From contig MDLC01000011.1 of assembly GCA_001723645.1 (NCBI GenBank), positions 1 to 64,000 on the forward strand: a stretch of DNA of 64,000 nt, read 5' to 3'. Below, one piece after another: positions 6,502-29,966 of this stretch. Each line of letters starts with the position of its first letter. The first letter of the stretch is position 1. This DNA comes from Candidatus Endobugula sertula. Its GTDB lineage: Bacteria; Pseudomonadota; Gammaproteobacteria; Pseudomonadales; Cellvibrionaceae. A model generated the notes under the pieces. That model did no database searches, had not been told where the DNA came from, and saw only the letters and a list, made by a program, of their open reading frames with translations. Made by a program: the position numbers and the translations under genes.

Positions 6502-7827
6502 ATGTCAGAACCCATCGCAACTAGAGTAGGCAATTTCGGTATCGACCACCTCTATCCCAAAGAGGCTTTACTCCTCCAGCAAGCGGAACACGAGTCGGAG
6601 CCGGTAGTGAATGATCAATATAGTCGCCAAACCTCAGCTTATCATATCAACATTGGCAACCAACCTAGCGATTCTGCATTAACCTATAGCCATTTAAGCC
6701 AGAGTTATTCGTCATCTTATTCTACATTAGAAAAAACGGCTGATGTCGCTCCAGTTCAAGCGTTTCCTGTTCTATTAAATGGCACCAAAAACATTCTCAC
6801 TTTTATTGAACAACGGTTGGTTATAGAAAAGGGAAATGGGGCTTCCGATGAAGAACTAGAAGTACTATTACAACAAGGTATCACTGGTTTTGAACAAGGA
6901 TACAATGACGCATTGGAGCTGCTACAAGGCTCAGAAGGCTTAAGTGATATCGTCAATACAACCGTCAAGACATTATATCAACAAGTCACTGATGGACTGG
7001 ATGACCTACGCAGGGCGTATTTTGATAATCCGGTACAACCAGTTTCTGAACCTGTTCAACATGAAATAGATATACAGGCCTCACAAATACCAGATACGAA
7101 TCCACAAAGAGACTTGCCGGAACCCTCATTTAAAAACTTTATCAGCCCTCAAGACACTCTTATCAGCTCTCTCCTGAACCATTTAAGTGATGTAAAAACC
7201 TCTGTAGATTACTCACTTAAAAACAGCTTTTCATTCCAACTAACAACTACCGATGGTGATACCATTAATATCCAGGCCAATCATTCATTAGCATTATCCA
7301 ACGGTGACGACTCTATAAAAGATGAGGCTACCGAAACCAGAGCCCGTTTAAGTGAACAAACCCATAAAAACAACACTGTTCATTTTACCATTAACGGTGA
7401 GTTGGATGAACAGGAAGTGATTGCTATTGAAGAGCTACTGAATCAGGTTCTCTATCTAGCACATAAATTTTATCAGGGAGATGTAGCATATGCTTATCAG
7501 ACAGCTCTAAACTTAGGTTACAATCAACAGGAAATTACAGGGTATTCGTTCAACCTAACACAAACAGAAACATATCAAGTAACAACAGCTTACCAACCAT
7601 TTAGACCGGCTGAATTACCAATATCAAGCAATCAAGACACTTTCAACCTGATTGGTCAATACGCTCAAAGCGTATTAAAAACTCTCAATAACCCTAACAA
7701 CTATCAATATTTTAATTACACACAACTTTTAGAACACATAGCCAAACAAATTGATCAGCAAGTTAATAAAACAACACCTCAAGGATTTTATCATCTAATC
7801 AACGATTTGGTCGATACATTCTCTTGA
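6502..7827 (+). CDS. DUF5610-domain protein of unknown function
   Basis: A 441-residue soluble protein without signal peptide or membrane segment. Residues about 93-165 (ILTFIEQRL, then GFEQGYNDALELLQG, then QQVTDGLDDL) fit my recollection of the DUF5610 pattern. The C-terminal half has another conserved-looking block, INGELDEQEVIAIEELLNQV and AYQTALNLGYNQQEI (about 295-345), joined by Gln/Asn-rich low-complexity linkers. The function is not known. AGGAT precedes the ATG. It ends 150 bases before moaA on the same strand, but nothing links the two functionally. Confidence 0.65.
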   Translation: MSEPIATRVGNFGIDHLYPKEALLLQQAEHESEPVVNDQYSRQTSAYHINIGNQPSDSALTYSHLSQSYSSSYSTLEKTADVAPVQAFPVLLNGTKNILTFIEQRLVIEKGNGASDEELEVLLQQGITGFEQGYNDALELLQGSEGLSDIVNTTVKTLYQQVTDGLDDLRRAYFDNPVQPVSEPVQHEIDIQASQIPDTNPQRDLPEPSFKNFISPQDTLISSLLNHLSDVKTSVDYSLKNSFSFQLTTTDGDTINIQANHSLALSNGDDSIKDEATETRARLSEQTHKNNTVHFTINGELDEQEVIAIEELLNQVLYLAHKFYQGDVAYAYQTALNLGYNQQEITGYSFNLTQTETYQVTTAYQPFRPAELPISSNQDTFNLIGQYAQSVLKTLNNPNNYQYFNYTQLLEHIAKQIDQQVNKTTPQGFYHLINDLVDTFS

Positions 7828-24314: not shown

Positions 24315-25554
24315 TTAAACGGAGCTTGCGCTTTTATACGCATTTATAGAAGGAATGGAGGCCGCAACGATTGTAGAGAAGAGAATTAAAAACAATAAAT
24401 ACAGAGCGTTCTCAGAGAAAATATTTGCCTGAACATGTACACCAAAGTCAGACACTAACACACCCTTGGCACAGACCAGACACAAGTACAACAATGCTGC
24501 ACCCAGCACCATGCTGAGGAAGGAAACGATCAACGCTTCTAATTCGATGAGGAAAAATATAAATATAGGCGATGCTCCAATAACCCTGAGAAGCTGAATC
24601 TCCCTATTACGTTCCCGAATTGAAGCAAGCAACATAGCACTTAACCCCAATAAAGAGGCAATAAGGATAAGCACTGAAACTAAACGCAACGTGTTTTCTA
24701 ACACTTTCATTATTTGCCAAAACTCTGACAGCACAGCACCGGGCAGTATTGCCAACATGGGTTCCTTCTTATAGTTATTAATGTCTCTTTGCACATGGAA
24801 AGTTGCCATCCGAGATTTTAGTCCCAACATGAAAGCCGTAATACTTTGAGATTTAAGTTCAAGCCGCTCAACTTGCTCAATGGTGATTTTGCTCCCAGGC
24901 ATTTTTACACCCTGTTGCCAGTCAATATGAATGGGCTTCAATGCCTTCTAAGCTAACATGCAATGTTTGATCAACAGGTGTTCCTGTGGGTTTTAAAATG
25001 CCAACGACCGTAAACGGGCGATCATCGTGCTGGCTGAAGCTGGTACTGGCTATGCCGTGCGACAAAACCAACTTTTCACCCAAAGAATAACCAAGCTTCT
25101 TAGCAATATCAGCACCTATGACTACATCAAGCAAGTGACTGAATGCATGACCTTTGTCAAACTTCAGTGTATGCCCATTGCCATAGCTAAAGACTTCGAA
25201 ATACTCCTTAGTTGTGCCCATCACACGATAGCCTTTATGTGAATCGCCAAGAGCAATAGGCACGGCCCATTTCACTTGTGGATGAGAAGTGATATCTTCG
25301 AAAGATCCCCAAGAAATGTTATTTGTAGGCGAACCTATGCGAAAAACCGAATACAGCAATAAATTAAGACTGCCTGTCCGAGCGCCAACGATAAGATCAA
25401 CACCAGAAACCGTATTCGCAAAACTTTCCTTCGCTTGATAACGAATATGTTCCACAGCCAATAAAACAAATATACTCACCGTCATAGCCATCAATGTGAG
25501 AATCACCGAGCCTTTCCGATTAAGCAAACTTTTCATAGCCAACTTAAAGAACAT
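24315..25554 (-). pseudogene. FtsX/MacB-type ABC permease of a Zrg-like zinc system, frameshifted
   Basis: Two overlapping frames make one permease of about 410 residues. The N-terminal part (25554 to about 24930) has a first membrane segment (SVILTLMAMTVSIFVLLAV) and a periplasmic MacB-like region (GVDLIVGARTGSLNLLLYSV, VVGILKPTGTPVDQTLHVSL). The C-terminal part (to 24315) has three membrane segments and SIRERNREIQLLRVIGASP. At about 24937 the frame breaks in a CCC run: removing one C would join GIEA directly to IHIDWQQGVKMPG. The ATPase gene overlaps its start by one base. As it stands, no full-length permease can be made. Confidence 0.8.
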
Positions 25555-26234
25555 TAACCATCTCCATCCAAAGAGCTAATATCAGACAATGCATCAACGC
25601 GATTGAAATACCGAGATAATGATAGATCGTGGCTAACAAAGACTAACGTGATATTGTTTTCAGCAACTAATGACATCAACACGGACATAAAATTATCACG
25701 GTTATCTTGATCAAGCGATGAGGTGGGTTCATCTGCGATTAATAGTGTCGGCTTATTGATAAGTGCTCGTGCAATCGCCACGCGCTGTTGCTGCCCGATA
25801 CTAAGCGTACTGGCCTGTTTGTGCCAATCATCAGACGATATGTTTAATTTTTCCAATAGTGCTTCTATTTCATTTTGCCTTACACCAGATGTAGCGTGCT
25901 TGCCAAAATGGGTCGCTAACTGAACACTTTCAACAGCATTTAAATAGGGAATGAGATTGAACTGTTGAAATACATAGCCAATATGATTGGCTCGAAATCT
26001 ATCACGTTGACGCTGGTCCATTTGATCAAGGCGGTCGTTCAAAATCGAAACCTCACCATTTTTGGGGACGAGCATGCCACTAAGAAGATTAAGCAACGTG
26101 GACTTCCTGCATCCTGAAGGGCCATGAACAAAGACTTGCTCCTGAGGTCCGACAACCCAACTTTGGATATTGAGTATTGGTTTATTCGGCATCCCAGGAT
26201 AAACGACATGAACGTCTTTAAGATTTATGGTCAT
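25554..26234 (-). CDS. LolD/MacB-type ABC ATPase with altered Walker A
   Basis: A 226-residue ATPase with signature LSIGQQQRVAIARAL, Walker B LLIADEPTSSLD, a Q-loop in VFQQFNLIPYL and an H-loop in VFVSHD. The Walker A motif reads GPSGCRKST instead of GPSGSGKST: the invariant Gly before the Lys is Arg (codon AGG), a single-base change that should cripple ATP binding. It is the partner of the frameshifted permease and lies in a Zrg-like zinc-uptake cluster with DUF3299 and DUF2796 genes. The reading frame itself is intact. It may be a non-functional gene caught early in decay. Confidence 0.85.
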   Translation of the reverse strand: MTINLKDVHVVYPGMPNKPILNIQSWVVGPQEQVFVHGPSGCRKSTLLNLLSGMLVPKNGEVSILNDRLDQMDQRQRDRFRANHIGYVFQQFNLIPYLNAVESVQLATHFGKHATSGVRQNEIEALLEKLNISSDDWHKQASTLSIGQQQRVAIARALINKPTLLIADEPTSSLDQDNRDNFMSVLMSLVAENNITLVFVSHDLSLSRYFNRVDALSDISSLDGDG

Positions 26235-27958: not shown

Positions 27959-28269
27959 TCGTTAAATATTCCTGTTGTCGAAGGATACTGGTTAGTGATC
28001 CGCCTCGCTTTTACCCCCTGCTTAGCACAAAACACAAGCCTAATACTATAACTAAACTCCATACAATGTAAATGAGTCGAACACAACGGTCTGTTATTTT
28101 TATTTTTGGCGCGCTAATCAACAAATCAAGCCGAAATTGATAAAATCGAATAATATGTCATTTTTATTATAATTTTTTAATCTCAAATACTATTTTTTGG
28201 CGCCAAAACCGTCTGTTAATTGCTTTGCTTACTCGTCATAATTTTGGCACTTTATATGGGTGACTTTAT

Positions 28270-28288
28270 CACAATAATAATCATTAAA
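28270..28288. promoter_or_regulatory. Candidate Fur box before the ChrB-like/rhodanese gene
   Basis: A 19-base site containing ATAATCATTA matches the Fur consensus at 14 of 19 positions by my count. It ends 20 bases before the next start codon. A weaker Zur-like stretch (ATAATATGTCATTT) lies near 28150-28165 in the same gap. Confidence 0.4.
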
Positions 28289-28308
28289 ATTAAACATGGA
28301 CATGATGG

Positions 28309-29298
28309 ATGAAACGAACGATTACGCTAGTCTGTTTGGGGCTCTTGACCATTTCCAGTATTGCTTATGCGGTGATCACAAAGCGGGATTCCTCCGCTCT
28401 CAAGTTTGTCACATGGGATAGCTTGGAGCCCGATAAGTGGTCGTCTATCTGGCTCATCAAACAGCATATTGCCCCGCATGCCGTTATCGAAGTAAGTCCA
28501 ACGGGTGATCCATTAGGCGAAGGTATTGCTTTTGGTGTTCCGCAAGCCGAGTATAAACGTTCAGGCAATCAATCGACTTTTGAGAGTTTGCTCGTAGGGT
28601 TTGATCAACAAGATCCAACGTTAGAACGCCTGGGTAACATCATTACTGCTATTGAAACGACGGCCTGGAATGTAGCCAATGATCCGTTAGTCTATACCGT
28701 TGAACAACATTTTCGTCGTTTACAAGATCGCTATGGTCGCGCTTATGTTCCTATCAGTTGTTATGGGCATTTTTTTGATGTGCTCTATCAATCACTACTG
28801 ATTCACAGTGATCGTAATCATTTGCAACAAACACTCAGCCAAGCGGTCAATAACCAGCAGTGCCGAAATGCCCCTTCAATGGCGGAACGCAAACAAGCGA
28901 ATCGTGTTGCAGAATTACCTATTGAGCAACTGTTAGCGGAAATTGCATTAAATAAAAACGTTATTTTTGTCGACACTCGTGAACCTGCGGAGTTTGCTAA
29001 ATCACATATTCCCGGTGCCATTAATATTCCCATGCGTGATTTGGATCAATCCGTTTATGATCAATTAAAACAAGCAGATCGTGTCATTAGTTATTGTGTG
29101 AAAGATTTTCGTGGCTACGAAGTGACGCGGCAAATGCTGGATCATGGTGTGACGAATGTAGCGGTGATGAAGCCTCATGGCTTATCCGGTTGGCAAGCAT
29201 CAGGGTTGCCGTTAACCACTGAAGATATGTCGGAACAACAGGCGCAAGAACAACTAATGCAATGCGCCAGAGGCTCGCAGTCATGCAAAGCCTTGTAA
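28309..29298 (+). CDS. Secreted ChrB-like domain plus rhodanese fusion
   Basis: A 329-residue protein with a signal peptide (1-21, ending AYA), so probably periplasmic. Residues about 31-180 resemble the C-terminal domain of ChrB chromate-resistance proteins: KWSSIWLIKQHIAPHAVIEV, GIAFGVPQAEYKRS, STFESLLV, PTLERLGNIITAIE, GHFFDVLY. Residues about 205-310 form a rhodanese domain: VIFVDTREPAEFAKSHIPGA and active-site Cys263 in the loop CVKDFR. The domain order and export together are unusual. The downstream ferric-reductase-like gene overlaps its end by 16 bases, so they form one operon, possibly iron-regulated. The substrate is unknown. Confidence 0.75.
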   Translation: MKRTITLVCLGLLTISSIAYAVITKRDSSALKFVTWDSLEPDKWSSIWLIKQHIAPHAVIEVSPTGDPLGEGIAFGVPQAEYKRSGNQSTFESLLVGFDQQDPTLERLGNIITAIETTAWNVANDPLVYTVEQHFRRLQDRYGRAYVPISCYGHFFDVLYQSLLIHSDRNHLQQTLSQAVNNQQCRNAPSMAERKQANRVAELPIEQLLAEIALNKNVIFVDTREPAEFAKSHIPGAINIPMRDLDQSVYDQLKQADRVISYCVKDFRGYEVTRQMLDHGVTNVAVMKPHGLSGWQASGLPLTTEDMSEQQAQEQLMQCARGSQSCKAL

Positions 29299-29966
29299 AA
29301 AAGCGTTACCCTTCATTCACCATTATTCTTTTTTCTTATGGGAAAAAACTATTATGGCCGTTGGTATTTATGTTGCCTTTTGCGCTTTGGCATTTTACGT
29401 CTGATGTGCTGAATTATTTTCGCTATGGCGCGCCCACAGGACAAATCTGGTATGTATTTTCGAAGCTTTTTGGTCTGTATGCAGTATTGCTATTGTGGTA
29501 TCAGGCCGTATCGACCTTGTTAATAACGACCTCCTTGACAACATTTTTTCCTCAGTGGACATTCTTACAGCACCGTATAGTGGGTAGCCTGACCTTACTT
29601 GTCGTTATGATACATATTGCTTGTTTTGTGACGGCAGTGTCGTTACGCAAAGACACCGTTGCCTGGAATCTATTACTGCCGGACTTCCGAGATTTTTACC
29701 ATACCGCGATTACCATTGGTTTGTGCAGCTTTTTTGTCATGCTAGTGGCTATAGGTACGGCGTTATTACGCAAACGTTTTCCGGCAATGTGGAAAAAAAT
29801 TCACCGCAATATGGTCATCGTTATCAGTGCAGGTTTGGTTCACGGCTATTTAATTGGAACGGAAACCCGCTATGGTCTTTACGAGATATTTTACTGCGCC
29901 TTAATGGTCACCTTGCTTGCCGCTCTGTGTTTATGGTGGAAAACCACTAGGAAGGTGACAGCATGA
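29283..29966 (+). CDS. Ferric-reductase-like haem b membrane protein
   Basis: A protein of about 227 residues with some six hydrophobic helices. Two helices carry the paired His residues expected to bind b haems in the ferric-reductase-like transmembrane domain: QHRIVGSLTLLVVMIHIACF and IHRNMVIVISAGLVHGYLIG. It lacks FAD- and NAD-binding domains, as in YedZ/MsrQ-type members. The ATG at 29283, with AGAGG upstream, is preferred over 29262. It overlaps the ChrB-like/rhodanese gene and probably passes electrons across the membrane to or near that periplasmic protein. Confidence 0.8.
   Translation: MQSLVKKRYPSFTIILFSYGKKLLWPLVFMLPFALWHFTSDVLNYFRYGAPTGQIWYVFSKLFGLYAVLLLWYQAVSTLLITTSLTTFFPQWTFLQHRIVGSLTLLVVMIHIACFVTAVSLRKDTVAWNLLLPDFRDFYHTAITIGLCSFFVMLVAIGTALLRKRFPAMWKKIHRNMVIVISAGLVHGYLIGTETRYGLYEIFYCALMVTLLAALCLWWKTTRKVTA

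Follow-up and report, generated by a model that had tools for sequence, protein, structure and literature searches.

The stretch of DNA analysed here (the window) comprises the first 64,000 nt of contig MDLC01000011.1 of Candidatus Endobugula sertula. Two overlapping open reading frames on its forward strand, sharing 37 nt, encode an exported protein of two domains and a membrane protein (Table 1). Both genes are intact. Comparison with a second copy of the pair in the same genome indicated purifying selection, with pS of ∼0.75, which is saturated, and pN of 0.15 and 0.27.

Table 1. Features of the gene pair and its upstream region (positions in the window)
Feature	Position	Strand	Basis
Upstream region common to the window and a decayed paralogous copy in contig C10	28167..28308	+	82% nt identity, part of 28167-28514
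Fur-box-like sequence, weak	28270..28288	+	14/19 to consensus; no conserved counterpart in relatives' upstream DNA
Exported ChrB_C-rhodanese fusion protein, 329 aa	28309..29298	+	ORF; PF09828 and PF00581; AF2 mean pLDDT 92.6
N-terminal hydrophobic signal peptide or anchor helix	28309..28377	+	Hydropathy, residues 5-23; AF2 helix 2-26; lipobox-like Cys in several relatives
ChrB_C domain, residues 34-161	28408..28791	+	PF09828 E 4.4e-18; chromate-response residues replaced
Rhodanese domain, residues 214-297	28948..29199	+	PF00581 E 6.2e-14; structural matches Z 11-14.5 to solved rhodaneses
Rhodanese active-site loop C263-V-K-D-F-R268	29095..29112	+	C, K, D, F, R invariant in 38/38 sequences
Six-helix two-haem b membrane protein, ferric reductase/NOX/STEAP fold, no flavin domain	29262..29966	+	H104/H118/H181/H194; PF01794 in 14/37 members; AF2 pLDDT 91.3; Z 14.9 to SpNOX

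In the product of the first gene, the single hydrophobic helix directly precedes the ChrB_C domain, and in several relatives this signal helix ends in a lipoprotein-like cysteine. ChrB_C scored 66.4 bits in the Pfam search, where the curated cut-off is 25. It is this Pfam homology that supports ChrB_C; a structure search with the protein was filled by rhodanese-domain matches. The catalytic cysteine, Cys263, lies within YCVKDFRG and is invariant together with K265, D266, F267 and R268 across the family. The predicted fold of this part, from the AF2 model, is that of a catalytic rhodanese, with Z up to 14.5 in the structure search. Judged by this fold and the active-site cysteine, the rhodanese domain is predicted to be of the catalytic type.

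The second gene encodes 234 aa with six helices only. Pfam and NCBIfam searches with the window protein gave no match, and 14 of the 37 family members matched Ferric_reduct (PF01794) at E up to 0.01, the best at 2e-9. Aligned with VIA-align, the AF2 model gave Z of 14.9 to SpNOX, 14.8 to NOX5 and ∼13 to STEAP. Two histidines stand on each of two helices (H104/H118 and H181/H194). Three of them, H104, H118 and H194, are invariant in the 37 family sequences and H181 is >90% conserved; the second pair aligns in sequence with the histidine pair of SpNOX. Within the two pairs the histidines stand 14 and 13 residues apart, as do the haem ligands of NOX2. By family matches and predicted fold, the protein is assigned to the ferric reductase domain superfamily (FRD/NOX/STEAP, PF01794), and it would be expected to carry two b haems. 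We found no FAD- or NAD(P)H-binding domain in the protein and no gene for one adjacent to it in the window. A full NOX or ferric reductase enzyme was rejected on these grounds, together with the short length and the six helices.

The pair is rare, being present in 4 of the 369 class genomes sampled and in ∼1% of a phylum sample. A scan of genome contigs yielded 42 loci. When whole-genome matches were counted there were 43 loci with both genes, a few of which represent one species reached twice, and in all 43 the two genes are adjacent and on one strand, with a gap of -46 to 237 nt. The best-conserved residues across the pair are the catalytic cysteine loop and the haem histidines. At loci L070-L078 the match is a rhodanese that has no fused ChrB_C. 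One of these, from a Wallbacteria MAG (L075 9176-10417), encodes membrane domain and rhodanese in a single ORF of 414 aa, in which a seventh hydrophobic helix separates the two; because of this seventh helix, the helix count would place the rhodanese outside. The first-pass annotation of this DNA had described an exported ChrB-like/rhodanese fusion with Cys263 in the loop CVKDFR, encoded beside a ferric-reductase-like two-haem protein free of flavin domains. Signal helix, PF09828 and PF00581 are all present in the one, and an SpNOX-like fold with four haem-ligand histidines in the other, so this description holds. Pfam likewise upholds the ChrB relation of the exported domain, and the two genes stay together in many genera beyond the lineage of the window.

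In most loci the pair is preceded or followed by genes for PD40/TolB-like propeller, FlgD-Ig, PKD/FlgD, small exported and signal-bearing RHS/YD-repeat proteins. By our tally, at least one such gene lies within the fetched flank in ∼35 of 42 loci, with L056 counted from a separate look. A FlgD-type cluster gene was present in 8 of 10 genomes tested, mostly those in which the pair had seemed isolated, and in such genomes it mostly lies elsewhere or just past the fetched flank. Two distant genomes with the pair (L074 and L076) gave no cluster gene at the threshold used. Of the 369 genomes in the class sample, 4 encode the membrane protein and 6 the FlgD-type gene, the 4 being among the 6; with the window genome left out, co-occurrence is 3 of 3, for which the hypergeometric formula gives a chance of ∼1e-6. 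Based on these gene neighbourhoods, the pair appears to be a conserved, undescribed module that heads an RHS-protein gene cluster in most relatives. A literature search found nothing joining ferric reductase-like protein, rhodanese and RHS repeat, which does not prove that no description exists; likewise, nothing was found joining YD repeat, PKD and FlgD in a gene cluster.

Two features of the cluster proteins are recorded here. Many of the RHS proteins have a mature chain that starts, directly after the signal peptide, with the near-fixed sequence [FY]H[FY]PWDQGHDT, followed by a linker rich in Pro, Gly and Cys (for example L044 16638-20141, L037 12327-15803 and L071 15988-19491). No paper on the PWDQGHD motif was found in the literature searched. 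The PD40 propeller of contiguous clusters has an invariant C-x3-C (C165/C169 in alignment A5; L037 7260-8129), which is absent from propellers of a second cluster type in which the pair lies apart.

Counting the window pair, there are two intact pairs in this genome, alongside two RHS clusters. One intact pair heads a full RHS cluster in contig C33. The other is the window pair, which stands beside the zinc uptake gene zrgA, apart from both clusters. The second cluster, in contig C10, is full except that its pair is reduced to fragments, which match the window with 82% nt identity over 28167-28514, including ∼140 bp upstream of the genes, and 81% over 29167-29279. This remnant (L028, G000:C10:35000-47000, at 5.8-6.5 kb) is flanked on one side by a peroxiredoxin-like gene and on the other by the propeller gene of the otherwise intact cluster. 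Because the match to C10 takes in upstream DNA and that to C33 begins only at ∼28296, the window and C10 pairs are closer paralogues of each other than of the C33 pair, and the window copy has its nearest relative in the decayed copy inside the RHS cluster. As far as this paralogy can tell, the window pair is a displaced orphan of an RHS cluster, and it probably acts in trans on both clusters of the genome.

Other features around the pair were also considered. Membership in a zinc system was rejected since the neighbourhoods of relatives that were examined show the pair without zrgA, and the neighbour looks local. The ABC unit near zrgA (24315-26234) looks decayed from its reading frames: the ATPase (25554-26234, minus strand) has Walker A GPSGCRKST, with Arg replacing Gly before Lys, and the FtsX/MacB permease (24315-25554, minus strand) is split over two overlapping frames. 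No meaningful PADLOC match was obtained for the six proteins scanned, and a role in anti-phage defence was discarded. Control of the pair by Fur, suggested earlier from the box upstream of the first gene, is not established: the match to consensus is weak, with p ∼0.03 by shuffling for its 300 bp, and the box is common only to the decayed C10 paralogue. Zur control was dropped, the window containing no Zur-like excess.

In three genomes, parts of the pair are exchanged for, or stand with, ABC importer genes. On Thiodictyon plasmid pTs485 (L106 6505-12402), genes for FlgD, PD40 propeller, solute-binding protein, an ABC permease annotated as iron type, ATPase and an exported stand-alone ChrB_C share one orientation and are nearly contiguous, and importer and ChrB_C replace the pair. 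The binding protein of this importer scored best against aminoethylphosphonate families. In genome G264 (L108 4-1858) the pair is likewise replaced; there the end of an ABC permease gene and an ATPase gene come before exported ChrB_C, propeller and FlgD. In Aquabacterium (L077, ABC/ChrB_C at 6591-7747) the order is ABC ATPase, exported ChrB_C, propeller, FlgD, rhodanese and membrane protein. These arrangements suggest that ChrB_C and rhodanese are separable parts of the cluster that are joined in the window protein. Small genes near the Thiodictyon locus include a MafI-like gene.

The cluster association suggests that the product of the pair serves the RHS system, although association in genomes is no proof of such service. 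We propose that the pair is a trans-membrane electron-delivery module in which a quinol-fed haem b conduit reduces a periplasmic rhodanese that serves this system, a reading to which we give about an even chance of being correct. The six-helix protein would hold two b haems and carry electrons, with quinol as the most likely donor, across to the periplasmic side, where they would reduce the exported rhodanese at Cys263, in the form of a persulfide, disulfide or oxidised cysteine, or else a substrate that the rhodanese handles. This direction of flow is drawn by analogy with MsrQ (YedZ) of the MsrPQ system, a flavin-free six-helix core with two b haems that supplies electrons to a periplasmic enzyme whose gene is adjacent (PMC8238504, PMC5676040). 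ChrB_C, its chromate-sensing residues lost, would serve to bind a ligand or a partner, and the whole would work for the secreted RHS/YD-repeat system with which its genes normally cluster. The two distant genomes that gave no cluster gene, and the absence of the propeller C-x3-C from clusters of the second type, count against this reading. A more specific and more doubtful proposal is a maturation machine, in which haem b conduit, periplasmic rhodanese and exported ChrB_C would together act on RHS-cluster proteins by redox and sulfur transfer. Its targets might be the C-x3-C propeller, a possible thiol partner of the pair, or the mature N-terminus of the RHS protein. A comparable maturation step of RHS proteins was not described in the literature searched.

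The main rival is handling of a metal or oxyanion, which we consider unlikely, though not by far. Here the haem protein would reduce a metal such as ferric iron, or a sulfur or oxyanion compound, bound by ChrB_C and rhodanese; the product would be taken up or detoxified, and the RHS cluster would need the metal. This reading draws chiefly on the ferric-reductase/STEAP-like fold and on the importer that, with exported ChrB_C, takes the place of the pair beside FlgD and PD40 in Thiodictyon and G264. The iron-type annotation of the Thiodictyon permease, the joint occurrence of ABC ATPase, ChrB_C, rhodanese and membrane protein in Aquabacterium and the position of the window pair next to zrgA point the same way. 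However, the Thiodictyon binding protein had its best scores with aminoethylphosphonate families, the Fur box is not conserved, the chromate residues of ChrB_C are replaced, and the most conserved part of the pair, the rhodanese cysteine loop, suits sulfur chemistry better than ferric reduction. Transfer of electrons to oxygen on the outer face, with the membrane protein as a NOX-like generator of superoxide or peroxide, would agree with the fold and the histidines. We regard it as very improbable, since no flavin or NADPH domain is present or encoded adjacent, and the constant partnership and the fusion with a catalytic rhodanese point to a protein acceptor.

The ChrB_C homology (E 4e-18) could also be read as a sign that the domain senses or binds chromate in the periplasm and that the haem protein reduces it. 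In ChrB of O. tritici, chromate induction requires R180, R187 and H229 (PMC3817168). Their equivalents were located on the classical motif TR-x6-R...FTH, in which the distances of 7 and 42 residues are matched exactly. Of 36 family members, 26 have W at the first of these positions, 29 have K at the second and 35 have R at the third. Genuine ChrB genes in relatives adjoin an apparent chrA, while no chrA was found next to the pair, and the rhodanese-only relatives do entirely without ChrB_C. A role in chromate response or reduction is the least probable of the readings considered, and the specific chromate link that had been drawn from the domain is not supported. Because the response residues are replaced and classical ChrB sits by chrA, the label ChrB misleads for the 329-aa protein; it is the name of a domain family and not of a function. 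The first-pass annotation had gone on to suggest a periplasmic redox system for sulfur, metal or oxyanion reduction. A periplasmic redox role is a natural inference from the exported rhodanese, its haem partner and their obligate pairing, and this part is retained. The RHS cluster had been missed, and its presence favours service to the RHS system over respiratory or detoxifying reduction of an oxyanion.

If the electron-delivery reading is correct, the ChrB_C-rhodanese protein would be a new periplasmic partner among the few enzymes that receive electrons from flavin-free NOX-like haem conduits. The gene association also connects a redox module with a secreted RHS cluster of which no description was found in the literature searched, and provides a genetic system for asking what use a giant repeat protein would have for electron or sulfur transfer in the periplasm. 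For annotation, the label 'chromate resistance protein ChrB domain' can mislead when the protein is exported.

Several known systems share parts of this arrangement. The 329-aa protein has the ChrB_C domain of the ChrB regulator (PF09828). Unlike that regulator, it is exported and carries a fused C-terminal catalytic rhodanese; the replaced chromate-response residues and the traits absent from it, namely cytoplasmic location, a DNA-binding N-terminal half and a chrA neighbour, set it further apart. Rhodanese-ChrB_C fusions by chrA also unite a rhodanese and a ChrB_C domain in a single chain, as in a genome of the same genus (G001, L081 1432-2283, minus strand), where the fusion lies beside an apparent chrA and is apparently cytoplasmic. 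Their domain order is the opposite, they have no signal helix and they mostly keep the equivalents of R187 and H229. YgaP and the GlpE/PspE rhodaneses resemble the rhodanese part in having a single catalytic domain with a six-residue loop, as judged by structural match; the loop CVKDFR is specific to the present family, and those rhodaneses have neither the fusion partner nor the haem protein. SpNOX, NOX5 and STEAP share the fold (Z ∼15) and the four-histidine haem pattern with the membrane protein, which differs in being free of FAD and NADPH domains. Identity with MsrQ was rejected because no NCBIfam model, that of MsrQ included, matched the membrane protein at E up to 0.1 and because its neighbour is a rhodanese; MsrQ serves as an analogy of mechanism only. 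Like MsrQ, the membrane protein would be a six-helix two-haem b core, free of flavin and dedicated to the neighbouring periplasmic enzyme. Unlike MsrQ, its partner is a ChrB_C-rhodanese protein instead of the molybdoenzyme MsrP, and its genes belong to the context of an RHS cluster.
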